Below, piece by piece: positions 1,594 to 10,212 of a DNA stretch of 64,000 bases. Under the pieces are notes generated by a model. It worked only from the letters and a program-made list of their open reading frames with translations. It was not told where the DNA came from and made no database searches. The translations under genes and the position numbers were made by a program. The number at the start of each line of letters is the position of its first letter. The first letter of the stretch is position 1. Origin of the DNA: Halomonas alkalicola. GTDB taxonomy: Bacteria; Pseudomonadota; Gammaproteobacteria; Pseudomonadales; Halomonadaceae. Location: positions 992,001 through 1,056,000 of the forward strand of contig NZ_CP131913.1 of assembly GCF_030704205.1 (NCBI RefSeq), read 5' to 3'.

Positions 1594-1594
1594 T

Positions 1595-1671
1595 TGCAGC
1601 GTCTGTCATCACCGGTGGCAAATCCGCAGCGAAGCGTAAGTTTTGGCATCCGGCGCATGCCCTGGTTATGC
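1595..1671 (-). other. attC site, last in array, R' core lost
   Basis: On the minus strand it starts with the R'' core GCATAAC (1671-1665), which contains the stop of the cassette gene. By hand alignment about 55 of 65 positions match the attC at 6857-6933 without gaps. At the far end the expected GTT of the R' core is replaced by CGC, so the site looks inactivated. Confidence 0.7.
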
Positions 1672-1986
1672 TTGAAACTCGATATTCACAGCCGACTCGT
1701 CTCCACAATGAATGAATATCTTGCCTTTAGCTGAGCCTGCAGATTGAAACTGGAACCAACCACGGCCAGAGTTCTCGCGGCCATCGTCATTGCCGGACCA
1801 CGAGAATTCGACGCGCGCTCCATCATCAGTAACGCGATAATCGATTTCCCCCTCGACTGCGCCGAACATGAAGAAACCAAGGCCGTCTTTATCGAACTGA
1901 AAATACCCGGGCTCGATAAGATCAACAAAATCTTGATCCCACATCTCCATCCACTTGATTCGCCATCTTCCCACAATATTAATCAA
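1666..1986 (-). CDS. Integron cassette protein of unknown function
   Basis: A 106-residue acidic protein with motifs WRIKWMEMWDQDFVDL, GEIDYRV, FSWSGNDDG, SGRGW and KIFIHCGDES. I recognise this as a protein family seen repeatedly in integron cassettes, with no known function. The pattern of short hydrophobic stretches suggests an all-beta fold. Start choice: TTG at 1986 sits 4 bases after a strong AGGAGG at 1996-1991; the open frame continues upstream only through the attC of the next cassette. The stop TAA lies inside the attC R'' core. It is the last gene of the array. Base composition is AT-richer than the host. Confidence 0.75.
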   Translation of the reverse strand: MINIVGRWRIKWMEMWDQDFVDLIEPGYFQFDKDGLGFFMFGAVEGEIDYRVTDDGARVEFSWSGNDDGRENSGRGWFQFQSAGSAKGKIFIHCGDESAVNIEFQA

Positions 1987-2002
1987 GTTACCTCCTGAAT
2001 AA

Positions 2003-2060
2003 ATAACGCCCGCGCAAAGCGCGCGAGGCACGAGCGTCGCATTTTACGCGTCTGTTATGC
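2003..2060 (-). other. attC site (58 bp)
   Basis: On the minus strand it runs from GCATAAC (2060-2054) to GCGTTAT, with internal GC-rich imperfect dyads. It overlaps the TAA stop of the DUF5677-like gene and precedes the next cassette gene by 17 bases. Confidence 0.75.
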
Positions 2061-2753
2061 TTCATCATCTTCTGTATCGCCATCATCGTCGAAATAATTG
2101 TACCACCAGTCCATTGGCATAGGAGCTTGAACAACTAAGCTAAATTTTTCCATGAAGAGCTCGTAGGCCATATGGACGTACTTACATGATCTAAATAGAA
2201 AATCTATATCTATAGGAGCTTCGAATAAATCTGGAATGAGATGATGCTTGTGAAGTGGGCTATTGCAATCTTTACAGTTATAAATTGATACATGAGGCCA
2301 CATGTTATGAGCAGCATGGCTAAATGGCTTATATGCAAACTTATACAAACCTTCACAATCAGCTTCCTGAGACATTCGCCTGTAATCCAACTGCGCCCAA
2401 TTACCAAGATTGACCTCAACAAAAAAGTCACGACGCTGTGAATTTATCCAAGCAGATTTATAATCAACAAGCTGAATTAATTGTTCATTATTAGGGTTTT
2501 CAGGGTTATCCTCCAACTCTTTCTTGAAGTGCTCCATAAGAAGCTTCTCTTCGCCTAACCCATGCAATATATATTTTTTTGAACGCTCCTCTAAATCTAG
2601 CATGATCCACGACAACGCTATATGTAAATCTGTCATCGCTCGTAGAAACAATGGGGCCGAATGTCCGTTCCATATATTCGGCGATCTTGCCATTTGAATA
2701 GACATGGTGACCTGGCGGGACAAAAGCCCTCCAATCACAGAGTATGCCTCTAA
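2055..2753 (-). pseudogene. DUF5677-like cassette gene, C-terminal part cut off by IS1380
   Basis: This encodes the last 232 residues of a 267-residue protein resembling the DUF5677 family (IGGLLSRQ, the helix WNGHSAPLFLRAMTDLHIAL, HKHHLIPDLF). The first 35 codons are at 4581-4477, on the other side of an IS element. Removing the IS and one copy of its TCTAA duplication restores one frame across the junction (DK|LEAYSVIGGLL). The fragment has an internal ATG but no visible ribosome binding site, so it is probably not made in native form. The gene was the second of a two-gene cassette. The biochemical role of DUF5677 is not known to me, and the family name is from recall of motif style. Confidence 0.75.
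2749..2753. repeat. Target site duplication, left copy (TCTAA)
   Basis: TCTAA occurs immediately outside the left inverted repeat, and again at 4472-4476 outside the right one. Confidence 0.9.
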
Positions 2754-4471
2754 CCCGCCTTATTCATGAGACCGGCCTGAAAACGAAGATAGCGGATGGT
2801 ATCCTCTTGAAAATTCAGTGTGTTCCGCCAAGAACCTGATCCAAGGGAGCCATCCGCTATGGGTGAAAGCCTATCCACCTGGACGCCCTCGTGCAACGGC
2901 TCTGTCCGTGTCGAGCTGAGCGGCCACCGCACCACCAGCGACAGCGGCGCTTTGTTGCTGCGTGAAGCCCTCGACAACAGCGGCGTGATTGAGGCGCTCG
3001 AAGACAACCTGGTCGATCCGCGTCACCCGCTGCGTATCCGCCACTCCCTGGCCAGTCAGCTACGCACCCTGGTGCTGCAGCGCGCGATGGGCTGGATCGA
3101 TCTCAGCGATACCGACACGCTGCGCCGTGACCCGCTCTGGCAGTTGGCCTGTAGCGACGCGCGCGGGACGACGCCATTGGCGCAGGACCGGCCGTCTCAA
3201 GCCACGCTGTCGCGGCTGCTGACCTGCCTCGGCCGCAACGACAACATCGATGCCGTGCACGAAGGCCTGCTGCGGCTGGTGCTCTGGCGCCTGACCTCGC
3301 TGAAGAACGGCGAGCGCCCCAAGCAGCTGACGCTGGACATCGACGGCCTGCCGATCGAGGTCCACGGTCACCAAGGTGGCTCGGCCTACCATGGCCTTTA
3401 CGGTACCCGCATCTACTCGCCGCTGGTCGCCTCGCTGGCCGAAACAGGCGACATGGTCGGTGGCCTGCTACGCGAGGGCAACGCCGGCCCGGCTGAGAAT
3501 GCCGATACATGGATCCCCCATCTGGTGACGCGGCTCAACGAGAGCACTGGCGCCCAGGTTCGGGTGCGCATCGATGCCGGATTCACCGACAACGACACGC
3601 TGGAGGCGCTGGAAGAGCGCGACATCGAGTATCTGGGCCGGTTACGCAGCCACAAGGGCCTGCAAAAATTGGCGGCGCCCTACCTGAAGCGGCCCCGCGG
3701 CCGACCGCCTGAACAGCCTCGAGAATGGTGCCATGACCTTGAGTACCAAGCCGGTTCCTGGCCGGCACCACGGCGCGTCGTGCTGGTCGTGCAGGAGCGC
3801 CCCGATGACCTGCTGCTGCATGCCTTCTTCCTGGTCACCAACCTCAGCAAGTTCGACTGGCCGCCAGAGAAGGTCCTAGCACTCTATCGCAAGCGCGGCA
3901 GCGCCGAGGCGCACATGGGCGAAGTGAAGTCGGCGCTCGACGTGCACCTCTCGTCGACCGATCGCGGCGCCTCCACCGTTCAGGACGTGATGGCGCGCAA
4001 CGAGGTGAGCTTGCTGCTCAGTCTCTACGCCTACCAGGTCCTGCATGGCCTGCGCTGCCTCCTGGAGCGGCAAACCCGACAAGGCTGGAGCCTGAGCCGG
4101 ATGCGCGAGCAGGTGCTCAAGGTCGCCGCCACGCTGAGGCTGCACGCTCGGCGAATCACCGTTCATCTGGGTGCCGCCGCCGACAAGTGGTGGCCGACGC
4201 TGCTGAAGGGGCTACCGAAGCTGACCGCACTGAGCTGACGCTCCTGCGAGACCACCACAGCATCAGAAAGCGAGCGACGGAGCGGCGGTCGGCGATCACG
4301 GCTGCTTGGACGGCCGCCATTGATTCCAAAGAGCTATAAGTAAGTAGGAAAAAGGGCTGCGTTCTGGCATTACTCAACAGCCACTCGCGCTGAAGAGGCG
4401 AATCCTGATAAGCAATGCCAACAGCCAGTACCTTCAGACCGCTCAATCAGCGCCCTCGTGAATAAGGCGGG
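2754..4471 (+). mobile_element. IS1380-family insertion sequence (1718 bp)
   Basis: The ends are inverted repeats starting CCCGCCTTATTCA on both sides (2754-2766, and the complement of 4459-4471), with scattered further matches inward. The element is flanked by 5-bp direct repeats TCTAA and carries one full-length transposase gene. About 230 bases between the transposase stop and the right end hold no recognisable gene. Intact ends and target duplications indicate a fairly recent insertion, into a cassette gene. Confidence 0.93.
2859..4238 (+). CDS. IS1380-family transposase
   Basis: A DDE transposase of 459 residues. The first catalytic aspartate is in LTLDIDGLP (about residue 160) and the second probably in VRIDAGFTD. 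The C-terminal signature LYRKRGSAEAHMGEVK fits the Y-(2)-R-(3)-E-(6)-K pattern of IS4-like and IS1380 enzymes. ATG at 2859 has GGGAG 9 bases upstream and is preferred to the upstream in-frame ATG at 2820. No frameshift or stop interrupts it, so the element could be active. Its GC-rich codon use is unlike that of the cassettes around it and closer to the host. Confidence 0.93.
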   Translation: MGESLSTWTPSCNGSVRVELSGHRTTSDSGALLLREALDNSGVIEALEDNLVDPRHPLRIRHSLASQLRTLVLQRAMGWIDLSDTDTLRRDPLWQLACSDARGTTPLAQDRPSQATLSRLLTCLGRNDNIDAVHEGLLRLVLWRLTSLKNGERPKQLTLDIDGLPIEVHGHQGGSAYHGLYGTRIYSPLVASLAETGDMVGGLLREGNAGPAENADTWIPHLVTRLNESTGAQVRVRIDAGFTDNDTLEALEERDIEYLGRLRSHKGLQKLAAPYLKRPRGRPPEQPREWCHDLEYQAGSWPAPRRVVLVVQERPDDLLLHAFFLVTNLSKFDWPPEKVLALYRKRGSAEAHMGEVKSALDVHLSSTDRGASTVQDVMARNEVSLLLSLYAYQVLHGLRCLLERQTRQGWSLSRMREQVLKVAATLRLHARRITVHLGAAADKWWPTLLKGLPKLTALS

Positions 4472-4581
4472 TCTAACTTATCGTACTCAATTTTCACACT
4501 TCCCCAAAGCTCTTCAAAGCTTGATTTTAGATATGATTCATACGACTCAATCAACTCTGAAACTGGGTTTTTATCTTCCAT
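4472..4581 (-). pseudogene. DUF5677-like cassette gene, N-terminal fragment
   Basis: The fragment starts at ATG 4581, directly after the TAA of the upstream gene (TAAATG), and encodes 35 residues starting MEDKNPVSEL before running into the IS. It includes the right target-site copy at 4472-4476. The zero-gap junction with the upstream gene implies translational coupling of the two genes before the insertion. Confidence 0.75.
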
Positions 4582-5319
4582 TTATGAACAAGCCTCCAAG
4601 TCAAAACACTGACTCCAGAATGATTTTGACCATTCGTTTTCACCTCCTTCTGCATCCTGAAATCCTGCTCCGACATTTATGTTTGCACGCACAAAAGAAG
4701 CGACTCTTTTGCTTTCTTCCGAATCAGGAACTGTAAAAATTGAATTGAAATCAGGAAGGTCTATTGCTGAACTTAAAAACAACTTACCAGTAGCCACCAT
4801 TGAAACGAATGCTGTAGTCTGGACCTTGGTAGAGTGCATTGTAGATCGATCTAGCAAAGCCGAAACATCTTCTCTAAGTTGCTCCAATGCTTCTTCCTTA
4901 TCAACACCATAGGTATAATCTTCAAAAAGAAAGTCAAGGGGGTAATCTTCTAGAAGGTGATACTGATGAACCAAGCTTTCTCTAAGGAAATTGAGCACAG
5001 CCTGATTTTCGATACCATCCAAAATCCTTCTCTTTTGCTCAGCAGTCAGTTTGTCAAAGTTATTCAGAAACACTAGTGCTGGTGATTTGTCATCATCCAA
5101 AATATCCTTGCATCTGACAAGGAATTCGATGACATAATGAACGGATTGCCGATCAGGATTTCGAAGAAAAATAGCCGATAGCCAAATCAGACAAGGCAGC
5201 GTATTATCCCTAAATGACATTTCTTTCATATTGGGGAGCTGCATCAAAGGTGGTATGAATTTTTTCCCCACCTTCTTATGATCTCGTAATATCTGACCTT
5301 GGTGATTCCCTTTAACCAT
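4582..5319 (-). CDS. Hypothetical protein, first gene of a two-gene cassette
   Basis: A 245-residue protein I cannot assign to a known family. It starts with a basic segment (MVKGNHQGQILRDHKKVGKK), followed by predicted helices, including a fairly hydrophobic one (LPCLIWLSAIFL), and an acidic central part (DYPLDFLFEDYTYGVDKEE). No catalytic motif is evident. ATG at 5319 follows a GAGGAAG. The stop is immediately followed by the ATG of the DUF5677-like gene, so the pair moved as one cassette and probably works together. Integron cassettes with paired genes are often toxin-antitoxin or antiphage systems; that role is only an inference here. Confidence 0.7.
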   Translation of the reverse strand: MVKGNHQGQILRDHKKVGKKFIPPLMQLPNMKEMSFRDNTLPCLIWLSAIFLRNPDRQSVHYVIEFLVRCKDILDDDKSPALVFLNNFDKLTAEQKRRILDGIENQAVLNFLRESLVHQYHLLEDYPLDFLFEDYTYGVDKEEALEQLREDVSALLDRSTMHSTKVQTTAFVSMVATGKLFLSSAIDLPDFNSIFTVPDSEESKRVASFVRANINVGAGFQDAEGGENEWSKSFWSQCFDLEACS

Positions 5320-5337
5320 TCTTCCTCACTCTAAAAA

Positions 5338-5413
5338 CATAACGCACGCCATAAACGGCGAGTAAAATGAGGTCCGGCGACCGAAGGTAGCGAATTTAAT
5401 GGCTTTGTTAGTC
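5338..5413 (-). other. attC site (76 bp)
   Basis: On the minus strand it runs from GACTAAC (5413-5407), which contains the upstream gene's stop, to GCGTTATG. Outer arms AACAAAGCCATTAAA and the complement of ACGCACGCCATAAAC can pair with small bulges, as attC single strands do. Confidence 0.8.
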
Positions 5414-5950
5414 ATCTTCGCCTTCGAAGTACAAACGAGATACGGTAAGGATAAAGCCATTCCCCATTCCCCAAGGTCGCTTCCTATCTTCTATTGAATT
5501 CCCGATTCGATTACCCGCACCCATATTGGTGAAATTTCTGTTTGACCGAGGTGAAACCCAACTTTTCTGCACATATGGTTGAAGCTCAGACACTGTTTCA
5601 CCATTCAATACCACAGGAACATGAGCTTCTTCTGAGACGGAAGAAATATCTAGGCCCGTTATCTCACCGATTAAAATAGCAAGATGAGCTTGTGTCGGCT
5701 CCCTGAGTTGGTCTCCAAGCACTTCTAACAACCTTGCAATATCAGTATCAGCCTGGGAAGCCCACTCAGTAACTATCTCATTAAACTTTTGCTACTCCTT
5801 CTCACCCCAAGCACTACCTACGCCTGCTATTGCTCCACCCACAAATGGTATTCCTCCCATTGCATTCAGAAGATACCTTACTGCCTGTTTGCCGCTCGGC
5901 TTTTCAATGATCTTATTCAACTCGTCAATTAGACGGTCTTCTCCCTGCAT
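5408..5950 (-). pseudogene. Cassette gene of unknown function with an internal TAG stop
   Basis: From ATG 5950 the frame encodes 52 residues (beginning MQGEDRLIDELNKIIEKPSG, then a glycine-rich hydrophobic stretch GGIPFVGGAIAGVGSAWGEKE), meets TAG at 5794-5792, and continues in the same frame for a further 128 residues to the TAA inside the attC core. Read through, it would be 181 residues. The second half (AHLAILIGEITGLD, SPRSNRNFTNMGAG) could be restarted only from poor codons such as TTG at 5731. The glycine-rich segment could be membrane-active. I do not recognise the family. One base change (for example CAG or GAG to TAG) explains the break; a sequencing error is also possible. Confidence 0.7.
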
Positions 5951-5975
5951 GGGAACCTTCCTCGTTATCTTGAGT

Positions 5976-6059
5976 GACTAACGCCGCTAACACGCGCAGC
6001 TTTGCAGTGAAGGCGAAGCCGCAACGGAAAAGCTGTCGCTGTGCTTGGCCTTGTTATAT
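5976..6059 (-). other. attC site (84 bp)
   Basis: On the minus strand it runs from ATATAAC (6059-6053) to GGCGTTAGTC (ending 5976), with a GC-rich internal dyad around GCGGCTTCGCC. The stop TGA of the upstream gene is adjacent at 6062-6060. Confidence 0.75.
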
Positions 6060-6839
6060 TCAATCCATCGGTTCATAGCGCTGCCGGTTGACGTAAGCTG
6101 TATTTTCCTTTGGCTCAGCACCCGCTTCCGAAATCTCGACTTCCAAAACGTACGAAGGCAATCCAAACTTTTCGAGGTAACCACACGCCACTTCAATCGC
6201 TTCTTTTCCAAACTCTAGATCGAGCCCCTGAAAATACCGGCACGAGAGCATCATCGAAAGCGGCGTTGCATACCGATATAGTAGGGTATCTTTATACCCT
6301 GTTGCTTTAGCCACGTTCAGCGGCACACATACAGCGCTTGTTCGTAGAGCAACTGAACCAGTTTGCCAATTTCTTCGATAGAAATTTCTGATTTCATGAA
6401 GAAATGCCGGAGCAGACTGAAAGCCCGTAATATCTTCATAGTCGTACAGCAGATATTGAGCCCTTGGTGCATGCTTAAGGATTTTATTGACCTGTTGTGC
6501 ACGCATGGCGTCAAAGTTGGTCTTTCTTCGTTGTCGCCGCTTCGCCTCAAGGAATGCTGCCCCCTGAAGATGTTCACCGTCCTTGTAGTTAATCTTGACC
6601 AGCACTGCTATATCGCCAAACCGATTTTCGTAGGAACCACTCAGCTTATAGGCCTCCCAGTGCAGGTGGCTTCGGACGTCGTCGCCCATCAGCTCAACTC
6701 GACCAAGCTCTTGTCGCAATTGCGTCAGAATACTTCGCGTGATGTGGTCTTCATCCCAATCCCAAATCCCAACGTTTTTAACCGTTGTTCGAATGGTGTG
6801 TTCAAGGAGACCTGTGAGGTCAAAAAGATCATATGGCAT
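6060..6839 (-). CDS. Cassette protein with PD-(D/E)XK-like nuclease signature
   Basis: A 259-residue protein. Residues 74-100 read FGDIAVLVKIN, then GAAFLEAKR, giving Asp76, Glu98 and Lys100 in the D-x(n)-E-x-K layout of PD-(D/E)XK nucleases, each at the end of a hydrophobic strand. The rest is mixed alpha/beta (ILKHAPRAQYLLYDYEDI). Start choice: ATG 6839 (MPYDLFDL); the frame is open further upstream, but that part (MPNPSLRCGFFTGD) is only the translated attC of the neighbouring cassette. Nuclease-like cassette genes fit an antiphage or DNA-processing role, which is inference. A non-catalytic protein of the same fold is the main alternative. Confidence 0.65.
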   Translation of the reverse strand: MPYDLFDLTGLLEHTIRTTVKNVGIWDWDEDHITRSILTQLRQELGRVELMGDDVRSHLHWEAYKLSGSYENRFGDIAVLVKINYKDGEHLQGAAFLEAKRRQRRKTNFDAMRAQQVNKILKHAPRAQYLLYDYEDITGFQSAPAFLHEIRNFYRRNWQTGSVALRTSAVCVPLNVAKATGYKDTLLYRYATPLSMMLSCRYFQGLDLEFGKEAIEVACGYLEKFGLPSYVLEVEISEAGAEPKENTAYVNRQRYEPMD

Positions 6840-6856
6840 TAAATTTGGCTCCTTGA

Positions 6857-6933
6857 ATATAACGCTACCATCACCGGTGAAAAATCCGCAGCGGAGCGAA
6901 GGGTTTGGCATCCGGTGCATGGTCTGGTTATGT
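6857..6933 (-). other. attC site (77 bp)
   Basis: On the minus strand it runs from ACATAAC (6933-6927) to AGCGTTATAT. The inner part GCACCGGATGCC pairs with the later CACCGGTGATGG. It is nearly the same as the degenerate site at 1595-1671. The stop of the peptidase-like gene lies in its first core. Confidence 0.8.
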
Positions 6934-7344
6934 ATTTGTTACTTTGATGAACCACTTGGGCTGCATTTCACTGAAGTCCGTTCGAATATTTGATGGCAGG
7001 TAGCTCGCTGAATCCAAAACAAAACCCCGATCTTCTACGCGTTTGAAAACAACCCAGTGCCAGAAGTTTCTGCCATTTTCTTGATGGTGCTTGATGGACA
7101 GTAATGCCAAATCAGGCAACGCATCCCACGATTCAAATGGAATCTCACCAGCTGACGTCTCGACGCCTGCATGAGTTAACATCGTTCTCACATATTGAGT
7201 ATCAGACCAAAGCGACTCATCTTCAGCATAAATTCCCATTGCATTTGCGGTAGCTTTCATTTCCGAATACGTTTTTCCCAGAATGTTGGCTACAGACGCA
7301 ATTCCGCATCCTGAAATTTCTTCCTGTATCACGGGCTTCAACAC
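6928..7344 (-). CDS. C39-like cysteine peptidase family cassette protein
   Basis: A 138-residue protein with a papain-like layout: Gln7 and Cys13 in IQEEISGCGIASVAN, His96 in HWVVF and Asp111 in FVLDSAS. This is the order expected for C39-type and related peptidases. There is no transporter domain and no clear signal peptide, so it acts in the cytoplasm if active. The start is GTG at 7344, 6 bases after AGGAG. It lies 39 bases downstream of the lysE-like gene with no attC between them, so both appear to belong to one cassette. The substrate is unknown. Confidence 0.7.
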   Translation of the reverse strand: MLKPVIQEEISGCGIASVANILGKTYSEMKATANAMGIYAEDESLWSDTQYVRTMLTHAGVETSAGEIPFESWDALPDLALLSIKHHQENGRNFWHWVVFKRVEDRGFVLDSASYLPSNIRTDFSEMQPKWFIKVTNT

Positions 7345-7383
7345 TATTTACTCCTTTCTGCATTGCTGTGTGCAACGGTATTA

Positions 7384-8019
7384 CTACCTGGCACTTGACG
7401 CGAGGCGCACACCCAAGGTTACAAACACTCCCCCAAGAGCACGATTGGCCCACAATGCAACTTTCTGTTTTTTCTTGAAAAACGTCCCTAAACGAGATCC
7501 AATCATAACTAAAAAAGGATCTATGAAAGCAGCAATAATAATTATCAGACATCCATGGAGAAATAATTGAGCGCCAGGAGAACCAGCCCCCTCAACAACA
7601 AACTGCGGTAAGAACGCCAGAAAAAAGATGGCCACCTTCGGGTTGAGAGTTGCAACTAACACCCCTTGACCATAGATCGAATATTCATTTTTCCTTTTTG
7701 GTTCCTCGTTCGAAGCTGGTGAATCTTCACGCGACAGCAGCATCATGAACCCAAGCCATATCAAATATGCAGCGCCTAACCACTTTATAATCGAAAAAGC
7801 CACAGCTGATGTTGCGAGAATTGCCGAGAGGCCGGCGGCTGCCATGACCACATGCAGCCCCCCACCTGTCCAAGTTCCAAACATCGCGGCAAAGCCTTGT
7901 CTACGTCCATTTCGCAAGGTCTGGCCCAAAATGAAGGCACTTTCTGGGCCAGGGGACAGATTCAGAAGAACCGCCGCTGAAAAAAATGTCATCCAGTGAA
8001 CAAGCGTGTAGTCAAACAT
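7384..8019 (-). CDS. LysE/RhtB family amino-acid exporter
   Basis: A 211-residue inner-membrane protein with about six hydrophobic segments and the LysE-family signature NLSPGPESAFILGQTL near the N-terminus, then GLHVVMAAAGLSAIL and TLNPKVAIFFLAFLPQF. Members export amino acids or homoserine lactone-like compounds; the substrate cannot be told from sequence. Start at ATG 8019 (MFDYTLVHW), since the upstream in-frame extension runs into the attC. It is the first gene of a cassette shared with the C39-like protein. LysE-type exporters are known cassette cargo. Confidence 0.88.
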   Translation of the reverse strand: MFDYTLVHWMTFFSAAVLLNLSPGPESAFILGQTLRNGRRQGFAAMFGTWTGGGLHVVMAAAGLSAILATSAVAFSIIKWLGAAYLIWLGFMMLLSREDSPASNEEPKRKNEYSIYGQGVLVATLNPKVAIFFLAFLPQFVVEGAGSPGAQLFLHGCLIIIIAAFIDPFLVMIGSRLGTFFKKKQKVALWANRALGGVFVTLGVRLASSAR

Positions 8020-8067
8020 TTTAAGGCTTCCAATATGGGCAGCATCTGTTCCAGATGCCAAGTGTAA

Positions 8068-8193
8068 ACATAACGCCCGCTTAAGGGGCTGACAACGCTA
8101 CTACCAAGTTTCCGCATAACAATAAAACCACCAAAATCAACGCATAATGAAAATGCCACGCGTTGGAAGTCCCTCTTGAAGCGTTTGTTATGC
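8068..8193 (-). other. attC site resembling the Vibrio VCR (126 bp)
   Basis: On the minus strand it begins GCATAACAAACGC, continues with CAAGAGGGACT and CCAACGCGTGGC, and ends TGCGGAAA...GTTGTCAGCCCCTTAAGCG and GGGCGTTATG. These blocks match the Vibrio cholerae repeat from memory closely and in order, including its unusual length of about 125 bp. The TAA stop of the acetyltransferase lies in the first core. Confidence 0.85.
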
Positions 8194-8685
8194 ATGTGCC
8201 ACAACGCGAGCCATGTGGTAAACGTCAACGTAGCAGCCATTTCTGAACGCATAAGCTTTCGACTCACCTTCAATCTCAAAGCCAAATTTCTTGTACAAAT
8301 TAATCGCTCGTTCGTTATCCACATACACCGTCAATTCGATTCGTTTCAAATTTAGCCAGTTATCCGCTAAATCGATAACCGTTTTCAGTAAAGCACTACC
8401 AACACCTAAACCTTGAACATCGTCTTTGACGCCCATACCGAATGTACCAACGTGACGGCGTCGCGGATTGGCACATAGCTCAAAGCCTAAATTACCTACT
8501 ACTTCACCGTCCACTACTGCCACATACGCATAAACATGCTCTGGAATAGCCTGGAAACGTTTTTCCCACATATCTGAGGATGGAAGCGGAAGTTGTAATG
8601 TGCCAGTGTAAGCATTTGGGCACTCATAAATTCCTTTTATCGCTTTAGCATCTGATGGCTCTGCTCGCCTGACTTCAACAACCAT
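8188..8685 (-). CDS. GNAT family N-acetyltransferase (YhhY-like), cassette gene
   Basis: A 165-residue acetyltransferase with the full GNAT core: VRRAEPSDAKAIKGIY at the start, the acetyl-CoA loop GVKDDVQGLGVGSALL (Q/RxxGxG/A type), and the C-terminal motif NERAINLYKKFGFEIEG. It resembles E. coli YhhY, which acetylates amino acids and related small molecules. Start ATG 8685 has AGAGGAAC just upstream; the open frame upstream of this runs through the cassette junction. It is the first cassette from the presumed attI side and so the one most likely to be expressed from an external promoter. Substrate is unknown. Confidence 0.85.
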   Translation of the reverse strand: MVVEVRRAEPSDAKAIKGIYECPNAYTGTLQLPLPSSDMWEKRFQAIPEHVYAYVAVVDGEVVGNLGFELCANPRRRHVGTFGMGVKDDVQGLGVGSALLKTVIDLADNWLNLKRIELTVYVDNERAINLYKKFGFEIEGESKAYAFRNGCYVDVYHMARVVAHA

Positions 8686-9030
8686 AGTTCCTCTTTTCTC
8701 AAAAAATGCATAACAGGTATTAGACAGCACGCTCGTTTATTGACTTGAACGAGCGCCCGCGTTCAAGTCAATAAACGAGCGTGCAACTTTTCCACTAACC
8801 AGCTGATTTCTTTTGAAATTAAGAATAGCTTGGCTACATAAGAAGGATTCGCGTGCCTGCTCGCTTGGTCATTCAGGCACGCTACCGCCCCACTGCATGC
8901 TGGCTTGGCACCTGCCATCCATGCGGTGTGATGCGCCTCTTTGAGCTCGCTGGCCAGCCGCCTCGGCTGGCTTGCTGTATTTCAGCGTATGCCGGGGCCG
9001 CCAGGGATGCAAAGGGCAGTTCGGATGATC
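8686..9030. other. Intergenic edge of the cassette array with long inverted repeat, no gene seen
   Basis: This stretch holds the cassette boundary core GCATAAC (8708-8714), a perfect 25-bp inverted repeat (8727-8751 with 8760-8784, 8-base spacer) and a 9-bp dyad GCGTGCCTG / CAGGCACGC (8851-8882). No integrase, attI or other coding sequence is recognisable. The plus-strand frame opening at 8853 runs far into pdxB and looks spurious. Confidence 0.6.
8727..8784. repeat. Perfect 25-bp inverted repeat
   Basis: Arms 8727-8751 and 8760-8784 are exact complements, each containing CTCGTTTATTGACTTGAAC or its complement, separated by AGCGCCCG. The plus strand continues AACTTTT, so it could end plus-strand transcripts, but no plus-strand gene precedes it. 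Confidence 0.9.
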
Positions 9031-10212
9031 CTATCGACTCTTGCCATCATCGCCGTGTAGCAGCCGAAAGCCCGCTCCCGTCAGTAGCGCCGCCAGGGCG
9101 GCGTCGGGCTCGGTCAGCTCCACCTCAAGGGTGGAAAACTCCCGGCGCAGGGGGTAGTTCGCCCGGCAGGCGTCGAAGCCCTTGGCCATGCCCTGACGGC
9201 GGCTTTCACGTCGCAGGCTGTCGTGGTCCCGGCGCACGTCGTGAACGGCGCGCAGGCAGAGCCGCAGCGCTTCTTCGGGGTCGAGGCCCGGGCCCAGCGC
9301 CAGGCGGCGCAGGGGCGGGGAAGGCAGCAGCGCATCGAGGGTGACCCGAGCGGGGAGCCCGAGCTCACGGCAGAGCGCTCGGTAGACCATATGGGTGCCG
9401 CGCCGCTTGCCGTCCAGGCTGTGGCCGGCGATATGGGGCGTGGCGATCTCGGCCAGGTCGCACAGGGCGGTGTCGATGGCGGGCTCGTGTTCCCAGACGT
9501 CGAGCACCGCGCTGATATCGCCCTCCCCGGCCAGCCGCTGGCGCAGCGCCGCGCCGTCGACGCAGTCGCCGCGGCCGGCATTGAGCAGCACGGTACCGGG
9601 CGCCAGCTCGGCGATCGCTTCGGCGTCGAGCAGGTGATGGGTGGCATGGGGCCCCTCGCGCACCAGCGGGGTATGCAGGCAGAGCACGTCGCACTCATCG
9701 ATCAGCGTCTCGAGGTCGACGAAGCCGGACAGAGATTGCCCCGCGGCACTCTCTGCCGCGACCCTGGGCGGATCACAGGCCAGACAGTCGATGCCCATGG
9801 CGGCGAGGCGCCCCAGCAGCCGCCCGCCTACGTTGCCGGCGCCCACAACGCCCACCCGCCGCTCGGCAAGCCGCCACCCCTGGCGCTCGGCCAGGGTGGC
9901 GAGGCTGCCGAGCACATGATCCACCACCGCCTCGGCGTTGCAGCCCGGGGCACTGGCGAAGGCGATACCGCGCTCGGCGAGCAGCGCGGTCTCGATATGG
10001 TCGGTGCCGATGGTGCAGGTGCCCACGAAGCGCAGCCGGTTCGCTCGGGCCAGCAGCGCTTCGTCTACCCGGGTGATGGAGCGCACCACCAGGGCGTCCA
10101 CGTTGACCAGGTCATCGGCGGTGATCTCCCGCCCGGGCCGGCGGACAAGCTCGCCCAGCGAACCGAAGCAGGCCTCGGCGGCGGGGACGTTAGCATCGAC
10201 AAGGATTCGCAT
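9031..10212 (-). CDS. pdxB: Erythronate-4-phosphate dehydrogenase PdxB
   Basis: PdxB oxidises 4-phosphoerythronate in the DXP-dependent pathway to pyridoxal phosphate. The 393-residue protein has the D-isomer 2-hydroxyacid dehydrogenase layout: N-terminal MRILVDANVPAAEACF, the NAD-binding GAGNVGGRL around residue 125, catalytic Arg in NAGRGDCVD, the Glu in the WEHEP segment, and His in IAGHSLDGK. The C-terminal extension (VRRDHDSLRRESR) is the PdxB dimerisation domain. It stands alone, divergent from the WGR-like gene, with TTACAAT-like promoter sequence in the short gap. It is the first core gene right of the cassette array. Confidence 0.95.
   Translation of the reverse strand: MRILVDANVPAAEACFGSLGELVRRPGREITADDLVNVDALVVRSITRVDEALLARANRLRFVGTCTIGTDHIETALLAERGIAFASAPGCNAEAVVDHVLGSLATLAERQGWRLAERRVGVVGAGNVGGRLLGRLAAMGIDCLACDPPRVAAESAAGQSLSGFVDLETLIDECDVLCLHTPLVREGPHATHHLLDAEAIAELAPGTVLLNAGRGDCVDGAALRQRLAGEGDISAVLDVWEHEPAIDTALCDLAEIATPHIAGHSLDGKRRGTHMVYRALCRELGLPARVTLDALLPSPPLRRLALGPGLDPEEALRLCLRAVHDVRRDHDSLRRESRRQGMAKGFDACRANYPLRREFSTLEVELTEPDAALAALLTGAGFRLLHGDDGKSR

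Follow-up and report, generated by a model that had tools for sequence, protein, structure and literature searches.

A Halomonas cassette array between htpX and pdxB that probably lost its integrase gene, kept attI and went on exchanging cassettes

The DNA analysed here (the window: the whole 64-kb stretch, positions 992,001-1,056,000 of one 3.61-Mb contig; genome handle G000) carries an array of integron cassettes at 1594-8711, between htpX and pdxB, with all attC sites on the minus strand. On the basis of sequence comparison, and with a probability of about 0.8, the array is a chromosomal integron that lost its local integrase gene (intI) and kept attI, its cassettes still being exchanged by an IntI from elsewhere. 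The starting point would have been a chromosomal integron between htpX and pdxB, common to three known Halomonas genomes; a deletion would have taken the whole of intI, sparing attI and its leader on one side and a post-intI block on the other. An IntI from elsewhere (in this genome, from 618.9 kb) would then recombine cassette attC sites with the window attI and with the array's own attC sites, and cassettes would keep arriving and leaving without a local integrase at a platform that is still usable. The features of the array and its edge were as follows.

1594-1671, minus strand: terminal attC, degenerate (R1 model, 16.7 bits, E 0.06; the 3' core is no longer GTT)
1666-2031, minus strand: last cassette gene, 121 aa, function unassigned; this genome's intact integron has a paralogue (81% DNA, 79% aa)
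2001-2060, minus strand: attC (R1, 30.7 bits)
2055-2738, minus strand: DUF5677 ORF, matching 306-444 of 486 of PADLOC DitA
2754-4471, plus strand: IS1380-family element inside a cassette, transposase at 2820-4238
4582-5319, minus strand: 245-aa ORF, matching 6-234 of 486 of PADLOC DitA
5337-5413, minus strand: attC (R1, 26.8 bits, E 7e-5)
5408-5950, minus strand: cassette ORF with one in-frame stop, function unassigned
5976-6059, minus strand: attC (R1, 65.5 bits, E 4e-16)
6060-6845, minus strand: 261-aa cassette protein, no family match
6857-6933, minus strand: attC (R1, 48.9 bits)
6928-7344, minus strand: 138-aa cassette protein, no family match, in one cassette with LysE
7384-8019, minus strand: LysE-type amino-acid exporter (NCBIfam matches all below cut-offs)
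8068-8193, minus strand: long attC (R1, 45.8 bits)
8188-8685, minus strand: GNAT acetyltransferase, first cassette (the intact integron is headed by two copies)
8711-8866, minus strand: attI crossover (plus strand AACAGGTATTAG) and intI-type leader of about 155 bp, by homology to the intact integron
8727-8784, no strand: inverted repeat of 58 bp within the leader; the hairpin of the intact integron is shorter, with 11 pairs
8867-8875, no strand: junction of 9 bases where intI is missing
8876-8927, no strand: post-intI block, which elsewhere follows intI or intI fragments

The attC sites were detected with a covariance model (R1) built from 25 attC sites of other genomes, one of which (L032:2207-2276) is from the same locus in genome G118; the training sites came in part from an earlier attC detector. 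Covariation in the R1 alignment was 0.598 against a shuffled mean of 0.167, and 86.7% of cells paired against 60.1% in shuffles. Both sides varied in 20 of 25 pairs, a value not special alone (shuffled mean 18.2; reached by 52 of 500 shuffles). The window was searched over its full 64 kb, on both strands and with filters off. An earlier note on this DNA had proposed at least six attC-like sites in one orientation, and six were recovered on the minus strand, five at E<1e-4 and the terminal one marginal (E 0.06); the next-best matches had E-values of 1.5 and 1.8. A whole-genome scan, which was not exhaustive (scoring covered the best 150 of 1847 candidates, and the site at 2001-2060 was missed), gave 10 matches at E<=0.1 among those 150, four in the window array and six in the intact integron. 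Rfam, searched at gathering scores, gave no match. The terminal attC has a counterpart in genome G007 (L033:2060-2137), likewise at 16.7 bits.

From attI outward, the cassettes carry GNAT, LysE with the 138-aa gene, the 261-aa gene, the ORF with an in-frame stop, the DitA-like pair and the 121-aa gene. Gene stops had been placed in the R'' cores; when ORF ends and attC ends were compared by hand, this applied to five of six, the stop at 6060 lying just outside. The attC sites do generally separate the genes as had been described, with none between LysE and the 138-aa gene, and the description was incomplete in that one cassette is interrupted by the 1.7-kb IS1380 element. A TCTAA duplication, read from the sequence at 2749-2753 and 4472-4476, flanks the element, and a 99.9% identical copy is found at about 621,002-622,721 of the same chromosome, near the intact integron. 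The ORFs at 2055-2738 and 4582-5319, of one cassette, correspond to separate segments of PADLOC DitA, a candidate anti-phage protein; the second ORF is split by IS1380, and the original start of the 2055-2738 ORF seems to lie beyond the element.

The earlier note had seen no attI at the right edge. This has to be corrected: an attI platform, recognised by homology, is present from 8711 with an intI-type leader. The window attI edge is 91% identical to the intact integron over 76 bp, and the leader is 73% identical over 182 bp to the region before its intI, with the post-intI stretches in order. Where a linked functional intI would stand there is a deletion scar. The post-intI block is 76-84% identical to other genomes over about 52-66 bp, and in G057, G041, G067, G125 and G131 its place is directly behind intI or a fragment of it; in the window's own genome it is matched by two 14-base stretches, one exact and one with 1 mismatch, in order (E 0.019 and 0.16, weak alone). 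Since the block lies 9 bases past the leader without intI, intI appears to have been deleted with its flanks kept, and the comparison supports a removal running from upstream of the intI start to past its stop. The leader followed by the post-intI block thus bears out the suspected loss of the integrase, and tblastn of the genome's IntI against the 64-kb window (best E 0.66) agrees with the statement that none is encoded at the array. The array has at least two attC sites in one orientation and no neighbouring integron integrase, so that its description as an orphan array (CALIN) stands in this respect; attI and leader are kept, and the genome is not integrase-less.

No sigma-70-like consensus promoter was found in the leader (scan of 8680-9035). 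The 58-bp near-perfect inverted repeat is common to G007 and G118 and may record a template-switch event; L115, L123 and L129 have longer repeats as well. Direct insertion of cassettes at a non-classical site (attG), which needs no platform and which PMC12444791 mentions for E. coli, could also produce a CALIN. A full attI leader is present, however, and common to two other genomes. An attG-only origin was rejected on the leader together with the post-intI block, and we regard it as scarcely credible.

Across 90 genomes of the genus, pdxB was found in 88 and htpX in 89; the two genes were on one contig in 82 genomes and on different contigs in six. The gap between them was <=250 bp in 67 of the 82, these being empty sites, 251-700 bp in two, 701-3000 bp in ten and >3 kb in three (G000, G007 and G118). 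No attC match was obtained in the seven that were fetched of the ten 701-3000-bp gaps. The attI edge and deletion junction of G000 are common to G007 (98%) and G118 (85%), and the three loci would go back to a single ancestor that had already lost intI here. The attI-proximal cassettes are unrelated among the three, identity ending at the crossover AAC. The last cassette and terminal attC are common to G000 and G007, divergence beginning at the R' core of the next attC. The G007 insert is largely transposon-like DNA. G118 carries other cargo, with genes for an Eco57I-type methyltransferase and for a NucS-like protein; restriction-modification-like cassettes occupy L032:2207-6345 in this genome. 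At pdxB, G007 is 96% identical to G000 and G118, labelled as the same species, 92%; the closest named relative is Halomonas sp. Y3 (96%), in a search from which the window's own record may be absent. As G118 is less like G000 at pdxB than G007 is, homologous recombination may have carried the locus from one lineage to another. Because the deletion is shared and the cassettes differ up to the crossover, cassettes would have changed after the loss of intI, provided that a single loss created the junction; the breakpoints at the crossover in three genomes suggest that cassettes were exchanged at attI once intI had gone.

A whole-genome integrase profile search found a single integrase over the TIGR02249 cut-off (402 bits), a full-length intI at 618,957-619,886 with its own cassettes, about 374 kb from the window array. 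The distant trans-acting mobilisation that the earlier note had envisaged gains in this way a possible supplier: a distant intI exists and the cassettes appear to have turned over after the loss. That IntI acts in trans, with the distant intI as supplier, we infer from these comparisons, and it would account most simply for cassette change after intI loss. The intact array carries copies of the window GNAT cassette in first and second place (91-94%). Window cassettes reach at best 94% identity to the intact array, so recent trans activity in this genome has no support.

That ceiling of 94% also fits a different account, in which the array has been inert since intI was lost and the cassette differences either predate the loss or arose by homologous recombination with other integron loci. 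The signs of decay in the window array (the degenerate terminal attC, IS1380 and the in-frame stop) and the broken intI of G007 point the same way. We nevertheless consider such an inert array unlikely, since the G000/G007 junction is 98% alike whereas most cassettes are wholly different, with identity ending at the crossover base, and other loci lacking intI give two further arguments against it. In L112 and L113 just the first cassette behind attI differs: the two share 769 bp at 96%, starting at the cassette boundary and including the second cassette, behind different first cassettes. G026 has one 744-bp cassette in two arrays, the intI-linked one and L124, which lacks intI; the copies are 100% identical, with GCGTT at both edges. 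Among 24 pairs of intI-less loci with a common chromosomal flank, 0/24 have any sequence in common over the first 60 bp from attI towards the cassettes, although the flank match is offset in several pairs, which may therefore not represent the same site. When 43 unlinked loci were screened against 18 intI loci for same-genome sharing (>=250 bp at >=80%), the only matches were the G026 cassette, the window GNAT cassette and the window last cassette. Continued exchange by IntI from elsewhere is accordingly the reading retained below.

Platforms of this kind were surveyed with the 185-bp attI leader of the intact integron as query, and 113 core-bearing matches were kept among the matches listed (query start <=10). 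The leader was matched in at least 68 of the 90 genomes. A core match was counted as linked if an intI match of at least about 85 bits lay no more than 2.5 kb away. By this measure 27 of the 113 listed were linked and the other 86, spread over 47 genomes, were unlinked; at least 8 of these 86 hold shorter intI remnants. Forty of the unlinked loci were fetched: 37 were without IntI-like sequence in the fetched stretch and three had remnants. Cassette-side attC sites were found in 36 of the 40, the nearest 269-4984 bp from attI, and none in L116, L126, L134 or L138. The orientation tally, from which 5 of 105 matches with E-values of 0.01 or more were dropped, gave 94 sites in the right orientation, 0 in the wrong one and six on the far side. 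In 29 of the 47 genomes with unlinked attI, some of them incomplete assemblies, no intI exceeded the family cut-off; G007 has just a broken intI and a short remnant (L067). Some arrays may therefore be inactive today. Remnants alone were found in L067 and L122, the score of L067 being due to another recombinase; the intI remnant of L079 is 24 residues long.

A tree of 70 leaders (after removal of seven duplicates) splits 36 against 34 with support 0.973. The side of 36 comprises 14 leaders with full-length intI, 14 with remnants, five with none and the three htpX-pdxB loci, and every intI- or remnant-bearing leader falls in the clade of these three; all 34 on the other side are without intI. 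The many such loci in the genus, together with L115, which lacks intI in the fetched 12 kb and groups with the window leader (0.948), would accommodate an array belonging to a dispersed solo-attI lineage that never had intI at this site. In the tree, however, the window leader groups with the intI-linked leaders (0.973), and it is adjoined by the post-intI block. Solo leaders often have a different ending: under a loose pattern, a GGGTCG-type block closes 26 of 37 of them, and under the strict pattern TTTGGGTCG 16 of 37. On leader placement and the post-intI block, membership of the solo-attI lineage was rejected and is held to be very improbable; loss of intI from a resident integron is the reading that we keep.

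At their outer edge, many solo attI leaders close in a conserved hairpin, GCTTTGGGTCGATAGC, for example at L104:3189-3206. The GGGTCGATAGC hairpin of solo leaders occurs 1-4 times per genome in five of six genomes, sometimes without a listed attI nearby, and as an idea the outer end that it marks could be a transposon end. The L104 and L105 leaders are identical over 206 bp and then diverge, in different chromosomal settings. At four unlinked loci (L033:6198-7158, G006:C14, G129:C10 and G007 near 2,352,792) an open frame of 290-312 aa encodes a tyrosine recombinase whose match ends 122-125 bp from the attI core, which suggests an element targeting attI. The transposase-like ORFs beside the G007 recombinase are presumably of IS91 type.

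For the genus as a whole we lean towards a multi-platform integron, in which one IntI would serve several scattered attI sites. Some platforms, the window array among them, would be former integrons stripped of intI. Most of those fetched would form a distinct attI lineage; its members often have a conserved outer end, stand without adjacent intI in every locus examined, and would pass from one species to another as integrase-free platforms.

In open PMC text, no paper was found that describes integron platforms of Halomonas, or arrays headed by attI and free of integrase as a recurrent class. CALINs have been listed as clusters of attC sites whose origin and activity are unclear; here attI was found and the route by intI deletion is legible, turnover after the loss may be inferred by comparison at the window locus, and trans mobilisation of integrase-less arrays becomes directly testable in a natural complete chromosome. 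It is also suggested that integron capacity is set by the number of landing platforms per genome as well as by the presence of intI. Class 1 integrons with intI1 deleted and attI1 kept are known. PMC12444791 already states that a functional IntI can mobilise CALINs in trans, and IntegronFinder 2.0, according to PMC9024848, seeks no attI outside class 1. The window array resembles a CALIN in having at least two attC sites in one orientation without a nearby intI, and differs in having its own attI, leader and intI-deletion scar. With the sedentary chromosomal integron at Xanthomonas ilvD, as presented in PMC12444791, it has in common a chromosomal attI with an attC array, loss of intI along lineages and CALINs elsewhere; there, activity is described as progressively lost, whereas in the window intI is cleanly gone and attI appears to be in use. 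In delta-attI-type cassettes of mobile integrons, attI or partial attI outside the usual arrangement is an IntI substrate, according to PMC12901181. These and the intI1-deleted class 1 integrons are clinical mobile integrons, whereas the window platform is chromosomal and recurrent across the genus.
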